Positions 16,425 through 21,470 of a stretch of DNA of 42,231 nt are shown in pieces. How positions within the stretch are numbered: position 1 is the stretch's first letter; each line of letters opens with the position of its first letter. The notes below the pieces were generated by a model. That model saw only the letters and a list, made by a program, of their open reading frames with translations, had not been told where the DNA came from and did no database searches. The DNA is from Clostridia bacterium (lineage in GTDB: Bacteria; Bacillota; Peptococcia; DRI-13; SM3-B62). Location of the stretch: NCBI GenBank assembly GCA_018433675.1, contig JAHDQS010000001.1:1-42231 (forward strand), in the 5' to 3' direction. The position numbers and the translations under genes are program-made.

Positions 16425-16883
16425 TCAATCCGCTATAAAGCTATCCTGCATTTCCTTCTTTTCCGGTATACCCGCTTCCAGTTGAGCATTAATAATGATT
16501 GTCTCTCCCGGTTTAACCATTCCCAGGCTTTCCCTTGCCATCTTTTCTATGATCTCTTCGTCATGCAAGGCTTCTATTTCTGCCTCTAATTTCTGCTGTT
16601 CCCTAATAAGCGCTTGTTCTTCCCCTTCCAGCACCTTTAATTGTTCCCTTAACTCCAGCATCCGGTATCCACCAATCATAAAACAAAAGATAAGATATCC
16701 CCCTATGAGCCAAAGGGGAACCTTGATAAACAGCGGCATCCTTCTTTTCTTCTTTTGCAGCAAAGACTCATTATATTCATTCTCCACAACATGCAAACCG
16801 GGACACAGGTTTTGTCCGTCCACAGCTCCTATTGTTTTTCTTTTTCGTTTTATCTTCACCGTCACCACCACGCCAAACATCAT
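16425..16883 (-). CDS. divIC: Septum formation initiator DivIC/FtsB family
   Basis: DivIC is a small bitopic membrane protein that joins FtsL and DivIB in the division complex at the septum. A basic cytoplasmic part is followed by one membrane segment (IKVPLWLIGGYLIFCFMIGG) and a coiled coil (LELREQLKVLEGEEQALIREQ and on), then the conserved ESLGMVKPGE near the end. The frame can be read from TTG 16913, but neither that nor ATG 16883 has a good ribosome binding site, and the N-terminal part is longer than in B. subtilis (125 residues in total). The true start may be further in, so the first 40-50 residues are uncertain. Confidence 0.85.
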   Translation of the reverse strand: MMFGVVVTVKIKRKRKTIGAVDGQNLCPGLHVVENEYNESLLQKKKRRMPLFIKVPLWLIGGYLIFCFMIGGYRMLELREQLKVLEGEEQALIREQQKLEAEIEALHDEEIIEKMARESLGMVKPGETIIINAQLEAGIPEKKEMQDSFIAD

Positions 16884-16905
16884 TCCATCGTAATGGCTTC
16901 TTTCG

Positions 16906-17274
16906 CTATCCAAAGGGAAATATCCTTCTGAATATCTTAAAAATGTAGTTAAATATCGTTGAAACAGTAAGATATGCTTTATACATCCTTCTTAAAATGG
17001 GTTTGCTGAAACAACGTAAATAAGCCGAAAAACCGAGCCCCATCGCTAGAAAGACATATAATCGCACTTCACCCCAATTGTTTAACAATAAAAAAGCATA
17101 TGAAATAACCGTTATCGACAGCCAAAAAAGGATATCACCAAAAGTTGTCCCCCAGTACTTGGGTTGCCAAACTCTTCTCACAGTTCTGTATATATCATAT
17201 ATAAAACCAACCAAACCTCCTAAAATCACAAGCAATAAAAAGGAGATTATTTGCTCAGCTACAGGCCGCATCAT
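16906..17274 (-). CDS. yabQ: Spore cortex biosynthesis protein YabQ
   Basis: This is a 122-residue integral membrane protein with hydrophobic segments at about 8-27, 46-64 and 70-88 and the YabQ pattern GLVGFIYDIYRTVRRVW. In B. subtilis YabQ is a sigma-E-controlled mother-cell protein of the outer forespore membrane needed for cortex formation. It follows yabP by 12 bases. Two tandem ATGs (17274 and 17271) follow AGAGGTGGC; the second has better spacing. Confidence 0.9.
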   Translation of the reverse strand: MMRPVAEQIISFLLLVILGGLVGFIYDIYRTVRRVWQPKYWGTTFGDILFWLSITVISYAFLLLNNWGEVRLYVFLAMGLGFSAYLRCFSKPILRRMYKAYLTVSTIFNYIFKIFRRIFPFG

Positions 17275-17286
17275 GCCACCTCTACT

Positions 17287-17574
17287 TCATTTGAGGAGTT
17301 TTTCCACAATCCCCTTGCCCTTGCGTTTCATCTTTGCCTTTTTGTTCTCTGCATACTGCAGAGTACAAATATTACCTGACAACATTATTTCTCCTTGTTC
17401 AAGATTCAATTGCGTAATATGAAGTCCTTCCCCTTTAATCACCAGCACTCCCAATTTACTCACTGCGATTATCTCTTGCTCGTCAAAACTTTCCACCTCG
17501 ATAATCCCATTTGCCTGAAGCTGTTCCCTACCGTACAGTTCCAGTTTGTAACCGGACTCTTCCCTTTTCTCCAT
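17287..17574 (-). CDS. yabP: Sporulation protein YabP
   Basis: The 95-residue protein has the YabP/YqfC fold signature: LELYGREQLQANGIIEVESF, then VLVIKGEGLHI and LEQGEIMLSG. It is produced in the mother cell under sigma-E in B. subtilis, together with YabQ. The start is ATG 17574 after GGGAGG; an upstream in-frame ATG at 17592 lies inside a hairpin and has no binding site. The first half of the ribosome binding site forms the base of a 19-bp perfect hairpin, so translation may be controlled by RNA structure. Confidence 0.9.
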   Translation of the reverse strand: MEKREESGYKLELYGREQLQANGIIEVESFDEQEIIAVSKLGVLVIKGEGLHITQLNLEQGEIMLSGNICTLQYAENKKAKMKRKGKGIVEKLLK

Positions 17575-17584
17575 GTTTTTCCCT

Positions 17585-17632
17585 CCCGGCATATCAATAT
17601 ATGTTTTTATTTACATATATTGATATGCCGGG
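17585..17632 (-). promoter_or_regulatory. 19-bp perfect hairpin overlapping the yabP ribosome binding site
   Basis: The arms at 17585-17603 and 17614-17632 are perfect 19-base complements with a 10-base T-rich loop. On the yabP transcript the 3' arm ends in GGG, which is the first half of the Shine-Dalgarno GGGAGG; the start codon follows 10 bases later. No U-run follows, so it is not a classic terminator. It could block translation, stabilise the mRNA end after processing, or bind a protein as DNA. The next upstream gene ends 21 bases away. Confidence 0.75.
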
Positions 17633-17653
17633 AAAAAGAAAATATACCCGTTG

Positions 17654-18037
17654 CTAATACTCAATCCCATCGATACTGTCATATTCTCTTTTACATTCTT
17701 GACAAAATGGCGTATAAGGTATTATCTGCAACCTTCCGGGATCAATTTCCTTACCGCATACCCGACATAAACCATAGCTGCCGTTTTCCACATTTGTAAG
17801 GGCCTCTTCAATCAAGGCCAGCTTGTTTTCCGCAAAAATCTTTAATCCTAAATCCTTTTCCCTCTCAAAGAGCACATCTCCAATGTCGGCAGGGTGATTG
17901 TCATACGAAGACAACTCCCCGGTAAAATAATTCTGTCCGCTTTGCAATCCTCTTTTTAGATTGTGGGCAGACGTGCGTTCCATCTCGCGCAATTCTTCTA
18001 ATCTCGTTTTGAAGTATTGTAAGCGACTTTCGTCCAT
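17654..18037 (-). CDS. DksA/TraR-type C4 zinc finger protein (YteA-like)
   Basis: The 127-residue protein has an N-terminal helical region and a C-terminal DksA/TraR zinc finger, CRVCG...FCQEC (Cys-X2-Cys-X17-Cys-X2-Cys), at about residues 93-117. All four zinc ligands are present. The N-terminal QYFKTRLEELREM and the DNHPADIGDVLFEREKD segment match the YteA group of Firmicutes, a conserved family of uncertain function; DksA relatives bind RNA polymerase. It follows the SpoIID-like gene by 13 bases, with AAGGAGG before the ATG, so the two genes are one operon. Confidence 0.85.
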   Translation of the reverse strand: MDESRLQYFKTRLEELREMERTSAHNLKRGLQSGQNYFTGELSSYDNHPADIGDVLFEREKDLGLKIFAENKLALIEEALTNVENGSYGLCRVCGKEIDPGRLQIIPYTPFCQECKREYDSIDGIEY

Positions 18038-19070: not shown

Positions 19071-19313
19071 TTATTCTATCACACGGTATAAGTTCTGCGC
19101 TTCACCCGCAGGAACGCTCTCCTTTAATTCCAAGACCTCTACTGTAATTTTCCTGTTCCCAAAGCCTATCCCTATTATATCCCCCACCTTGACATCATAA
19201 GATGCTTTAGCAACTTTATCGTTTACCGTAACTCGCCCAGCATCAGCGGCATCCCTGGCAACCGTTCGACGCTTAATCAACCTTGAAACCTTTAAGAATT
19301 TATCCAAGCGCAT
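19071..19313 (-). CDS. rqcP: RNA-binding S4 protein RqcP (YabO)
   Basis: The 80-residue protein is almost entirely one S4 domain (MRLDKFLKVSRLIKRRTVARDAADAGRVTVNDKVAKAS). RqcP works with RqcH in bacterial ribosome-associated quality control, stabilising the P-site tRNA on the 50S subunit while alanine tails are added to stalled chains. Length and position after mazG match B. subtilis yabO. Start ATG has AGGAGG about 7 bases away. Strong hairpins separate it from hup upstream. Confidence 0.92.
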   Translation of the reverse strand: MRLDKFLKVSRLIKRRTVARDAADAGRVTVNDKVAKASYDVKVGDIIGIGFGNRKITVEVLELKESVPAGEAQNLYRVIE

Positions 19314-21427: not shown

Positions 21428-21470
21428 ATGGTTTCGTCGTCGCCAAGTCTTTTGACGAAGGCGAAACCAT
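21428..21470 (-). promoter_or_regulatory. Inverted repeat upstream of mazG
   Basis: ATGGTTTCG (21428-21436) and CGAAACCAT (21462-21470) are perfect complements, with further partial pairing inside (CGTC and GACG). No T-run follows, so it is more likely an operator or leader hairpin for mazG than a terminator. Confidence 0.45.

Follow-up and report, generated by a model that had tools for sequence, protein, structure and literature searches.

We wanted to know why, in the 42,231-nucleotide stretch of DNA analyzed here (the window), the sporulation gene yabP is preceded by a long perfect inverted repeat that reaches into its Shine-Dalgarno (SD) sequence. On the minus strand, the genes of this region are arranged in the order hup, rqcP/yabO, a SpoIID-domain gene, a yteA-like DksA/TraR gene, yabP, yabQ, divIC and an S1-domain gene, and the following are relevant here:

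19071-19313, minus strand: rqcP/yabO (S4 domain), a vegetative gene upstream of yabP
17654-18037, minus strand: yteA-like DksA/TraR zinc-finger gene, directly upstream of yabP
17287-17574, minus strand: yabP, encoding a sporulation protein (PF07873), with its ATG at 17574
16906-17274, minus strand: yabQ, downstream in the operon
16425-16913, minus strand: divIC, a division gene, downstream in the operon

The order rqcP-yabP-yabQ-divIC-S1 was also read from the open reading frames at the loci L064, L073 and L067. The B. subtilis counterpart is the operon yabMNOPQ-divIC-yabR, within which yabPQ have an internal sigma-E promoter (PMC1925097); yabP is thus a sporulation gene located between growth-phase genes. 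In the window, two terminator-like hairpins and a weak sigma-A-like promoter are present between hup and rqcP/yabO, and no terminator-like sites were found from rqcP to yabP, including the gap between the yteA-like gene and yabP. Judged from the sequence, rqcP with this weak promoter is a possible source of read-through transcription into yabP.

The two arms of the inverted repeat, 17584-17604 and 17613-17633, pair without a mismatch over 21 bp and are separated by 8 nt. A previous inspection of the DNA letters, the sequence-only reading, had rightly noted a perfect hairpin but assigned it 19 bp (17585-17603/17614-17632), and it had paired the GGG of a GGGAGG motif; the SD is indeed partly paired, but the bases taken into the stem are the GGGA (17587-17584) of GGGAGGG. 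The elements of the hairpin and of the promoter that overlaps it are:

17641-17647, minus strand: -35 element GTATATT of a sigma-E-type promoter, a motif conserved in the order
17619-17628, minus strand: -10 element GCATATCAAT, within the 5' arm of the hairpin and separated from the -35 element by a 12-nt spacer
17613-17633, minus strand: 5' arm of the hairpin, TCCCGGCATATCAATATATGT, which covers the last part of the promoter spacer, the -10 box and what follows up to -1
17605-17612, minus strand: loop of 8 nt, AAATAAAA, with the predicted sigma-E start (17612) as its first base
17584-17604, minus strand: 3' arm of the hairpin, ACATATATTGATATGCCGGGA, which is the opening part of the sigma-E mRNA leader and ends within the SD
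17581-17587, minus strand: SD of yabP, GGGAGGG, of which GGGA is paired in the hairpin

The RNA of the yabP strand (111 nt) has a predicted folding energy of -43.1 kcal/mol, against -18.3 +/- 3.2 kcal/mol in dinucleotide shuffles (z = -7.8), and none of 200 shuffles matched the native energy. No second perfect inverted repeat of at least 14 nt with arms at most 100 nt apart was detected in the 42-kb window. Perfect stems of such length are rare in this genome, though not unique: seven of at least 19 bp were found in 442 kb, three of which belong to one dispersed REP-like family. The hairpin upstream of yabP is a single-copy element, as the only DNA matches in the genome are those of the palindrome against itself, and a 14-mer of its core gave only scattered matches when two mismatches were allowed. 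A dispersed MITE-like repeat, which the sequence-only reading had named among the findings that would overturn a regulatory role, did not materialize, and a MITE or REP-like palindrome was rejected because similar copies are lacking elsewhere in the genome. A known riboswitch or thermosensor family was likewise discarded, since the cis-regulatory RNA families of Rfam 15 gave no match in the window above the gathering threshold.

Some other palindromic and local features were observed. Near-perfect REP-like palindromes (GGGGTCAGGCTTGAAAWATTC) are dispersed in the genome (L395, 5548-5612, 18358-18418 and 19249-19312; L388, 18345-18383), and two parS-like sites (TGTTTCACGTGAAACA) face each other at 2247-2302 of L390. 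The window itself contains an imperfect 19-bp inverted repeat between spoVT and mazG (21428-21470), and an in-frame ATG without an SD of its own lies inside the yabP stem at 17592, 18 nt 5' of the yabP start.

The 5' arm coincides with a promoter, which had been overlooked previously. A motif GNATAWT - 12/13 nt - GCATANNNWT is present 25-44 nt (98 nt in one case) 5' of the yabP start in this genome, in its sister and in all the closer families of the order that have readable upstream DNA. It has an ATA in the -35 element and a CATA-type -10 element, about 14 nt apart and upstream of a sigma-E gene; sigma-E promoters of C. difficile also have ATA in the -35 element and a CATA-type -10 element (PMC3789822). 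The yabP promoter thus appears to be of the sigma-E type, with both its dependence on sigma-E and its start site being predictions from the motif. The spacing of the promoter elements places +1 at 17612, so that a stage-specific transcript would start at the loop, with the -10 box in the 5' arm. Since the whole 5' arm lies before the predicted +1, mRNA made from this promoter would lack the 5' arm, and only read-through mRNA would fold into the hairpin.

These features suggest the following scenario. yabP sits in a region that would be transcribed during growth (from rqcP through yabP-yabQ-divIC to the S1-domain gene), but its product would be needed only in the sporulating mother cell. Read-through mRNA would contain both arms, the 21-bp stem would form, the SD would be partly buried and a rigid helix would stand 9 nt ahead of the AUG, which together would prevent the synthesis of YabP. 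Once sigma-E is active, transcription would begin at the promoter whose -10 box forms the 5' arm, and the resulting mRNA, starting at the loop and lacking this arm, would have an open SD. The predicted cost of opening the SD and start codon is 15.1 kcal/mol in the read-through RNA vs. 2.1 kcal/mol in the sigma-E RNA for the window, and 12.7 vs. 4.2 kcal/mol for the sister species; shifting the start site by +/-2 nt does not affect these predicted costs. For most members of the order, the two RNAs differ little in predicted opening cost. Lower translation from read-through than from promoter-made mRNA is a prediction from these energies, and the block may be incomplete, as the stem takes in only half of the SD.

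We therefore favor the view, with a probability of roughly two in three, that the hairpin is a promoter-embedded, SD-sequestering insulator that silences yabP on read-through mRNA; its most likely role is to shield yabP from transcription of the rqcP-yabP-yabQ-divIC region in vegetative cells. Sequence and computation provide the hairpin, a conserved promoter motif that overlaps it, the predicted folds and, as described below, spacer-to-SD pairing that recurs across families; from these we infer the exact start site, that read-through transcripts arrive at yabP, how strongly translation is blocked and what the benefit is. The translational control suggested before thus retains SD hiding as its best-supported form; as the 5' arm is a sigma-E promoter (-10 box and start region), the origin of the mRNA from one promoter or the other, rather than temperature or cleavage, most likely sets the switch.

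The anatomy itself is already known from other systems. Long early transcripts of gene e (lysozyme) of phage T4, and also of soc, 49 and I-TevI, fold into a stem that hides the SD, and the transcripts of late promoters located just upstream of the ribosome-binding site lack the 5' strand and are translated; in relatives, the DNA that specifies this 5' strand also contains the late promoter (PMC3014915). Gene e and yabP are alike in that a read-through RNA that hides the SD, as predicted for yabP, goes with a stage promoter overlapping the 5' strand of the stem. However, gene e depends on a phage late sigma factor and serves the timing of lysis, whereas yabP would depend on sigma-E and serves sporulation, and the T4 effect of about 100-fold was measured, whereas that at yabP is a prediction from sequence. 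In B. subtilis, a hairpin of more than 20 bp upstream of sigG (spoIIIG) and downstream of spoIIGA-sigE has been proposed to block read-through translation (PMC5942855). Like the yabP hairpin, it belongs to a sporulation gene that lies behind an expressed operon and is served by a developmental promoter of its own, and it cannot form in promoter-made mRNA; sigG, however, is a forespore gene with a sigma-F/sigma-G promoter, whereas yabP is a mother-cell sigma-E gene. A second, short hairpin at the sigG ribosome-binding site does form in promoter-made mRNA and dampens expression 2-4 fold (PMC5942855); it hides the SD as the yabP hairpin would, but the latter is predicted to be absent from promoter-made mRNA. 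In the genome studied here, sigG (L113) has a terminator in place of a read-through hairpin, and yqfC (L368) also has an ordinary terminator upstream of its promoter, where yabP has the embedded hairpin. No report of such hairpin control for yabP was found in the openly searchable literature, and the repeated presence of such hairpins at yabP in different families appears not to have been described before.

The main competing view is that the hairpin is a neutral by-product, left when the -10 region was copied into the leader by a template switch or an inverted duplication, with a stem of little function that persists owing to the closeness of the two species. The hairpin itself is indeed confined to two sister genomes of one genus, and members of the order beyond these two retain the promoter but lack the stem. 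The conservation check proposed by the sequence-only reading thus has a mixed outcome: within the order the sequence is shared, identically, with one sister only, but unrelated sequences form the same arrangement in many families. The 5' arm and loop resemble the ancestral promoter and leader of the relatives without the stem (for instance GCATAGAAATATATGTAAAAG at L042), which makes the 3' arm the recent part and probably an inverted copy. The other long perfect stems of the genome, mentioned above, also fit with a neutral origin. On the other hand, the window and its sister species (MAG contig JAHDSQ010000017.1) are 100% identical over the 79-nt gap preceding yabP, whereas neighboring gaps are 91-92% identical and third codon positions mostly 83-93%, although the 79 nt include the promoter and the bases specific to the 3' arm are too few to separate the hairpin from it. 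With the sister's gap identical and the hairpin confined to these two genomes, base-pair covariation was unusable, and we used recurrence and arm swapping across families instead. As described next, many families have evolved this arrangement with differing sequences, an outcome not expected under neutrality, and we regard a neutral origin as unlikely.

To this end, 177 yabP loci were collected, mostly from a phylum-wide set of 398 genomes; some of the loci from outside this set had been inspected before the hypothesis was formed. Promoters were scored with a position weight matrix made by hand from the loci of the order and the published consensus, which is blind to complementarity, and 109 loci contained a promoter scoring above 95% of shuffles. 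At 28% of these 109 loci, the SD was significantly more buried in the read-through RNA than with shuffled upstream sequence, where 5% is expected. At 82 non-redundant loci of Firmicutes, the spacer and -10 box paired with their own leader and SD at -12.1 kcal/mol, vs. -9.5 kcal/mol when arms were swapped between loci (z = -9.0; 0 of 20000 permutations). The signal persisted with one locus per family (z about -7.4) and when loci fetched after the hypothesis were tested alone (z = -6.4). It is located in the spacer and -10 box, the four windows further upstream being weak (z from -1.4 to -3.0). A strong case, with differing sequences, was found in at least one locus of 22 of the 50 families. The stems at other yabP loci are shorter (7-12 bp), and SD-hiding stems with the 5' arm in the promoter spacer include:

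L064: CCTCCTTCG/CGAAGGAGG
L050: ATCCTCCCCG/CGGGGAGGAT
L191: GCCCTCCT/AGGAGGGC
L065: ACACCTCC/GGAGGTGT

In a fixed-window test, z was -9.2 for yabP, -0.1 for spoIVA, -2.9 for yqfC and -3.0 for assorted other genes, the latter having one third of the effect size of yabP; a promoter-anchored version for spoIVA, comprising 16 loci only, gave z = -3.7. Compared per locus, yabP differed only moderately from other genes (Mann-Whitney p = 0.016). The effect is therefore strong at yabP, yet some SD-pairing hairpins exist everywhere. As a set, yqfC did not exceed other genes in the fixed windows despite single striking cases, and as spoIVA lacked a signal there, we do not claim a general sigma-E rule. 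The single yqfC genes concerned (L385, L302, L353, L285 and L294) have CCCCTCC-like spacers that pair with GGAGGGG SDs. Embedded hairpins, called at an arbitrary cut-off of -5 kcal/mol, were associated with the lack of an upstream terminator in the expected direction but not significantly (1/24 vs. 11/58, p = 0.17), nor was this link significant under two looser definitions (p = 0.28 and 0.07). Taken together, we lean slightly towards the view that in many endospore-formers the sigma-E spacer and -10 box of yabP have been selected for complementarity to the gene's own SD, so that the choice of promoter would decide translation; the logic would be conserved while the sequences change fast, and vegetative transcripts would reach divIC without spore proteins being made.

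Recurrence also bears on the idea that a dimeric repressor binding the palindrome over the -10 box times yabP. Operators often overlap -10 boxes, and each arm contains a quasi-palindrome (CATATcaatATATG). A palindrome resembling the yabP hairpin was observed in the same genome, where 16 bp cover the -10 box and SD of a TetR-like regulator gene (L406, 8887-8922); it is probably an operator. However, perfect arms of 21 bp exceed what an operator usually needs, the other families share complementarity to the SD and not a sequence, the element is single copy and no regulator of that kind is known for yabP, which makes an operator improbable.

A perfect RNA duplex of 21 bp is near the length that RNase III-type enzymes use. 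A double-strand ribonuclease might hence cut the stem in read-through mRNA, separating yabP-yabQ-divIC from the upstream genes or releasing the SD, and the gap upstream of yabP, lacking a terminator-like site, would accommodate such processing. This would leave unexplained why the 5' arm is a promoter and why stems of 7-12 bp are present at other yabP loci, and we consider it slightly less probable again than an operator. A terminator or attenuator ahead of yabP is the least credible reading: a T-run follows the embedded stem at 6 of 24 other yabP loci (a simple count) and a terminator hairpin encloses the -10 box at L056, but no T-run follows the stem on either strand in the window, for which reason an intrinsic terminator was rejected, in keeping with the impression gained from the letters alone.

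The loci at which a T-run was seen after a promoter-embedded stem include L056, L191, L065, L142 and L200, and the same pairing may terminate transcription at such loci, not in the window. At L056, the terminator hairpin of yabP (AGCTGTC..GACAGCT, T8) would exist for read-through transcription only.

The promoter-embedded insulator also carries a caution, as a hairpin seen in genomic DNA may be missing from the relevant mRNA. Complementarity between promoter spacer and SD is a signal that lends itself to genome searches and, in B. subtilis, to tests by compensatory mutation, and further sigma-E genes within vegetative operons may use the same promoter-choice logic. If true, the proposed insulation would carry the logic of T4 gene e and sigG over to a gene of the mother cell and to many families of bacteria, and would explain how a gene needed only for sporulation can sit amid vegetative operon genes without yielding its product in growing cells.
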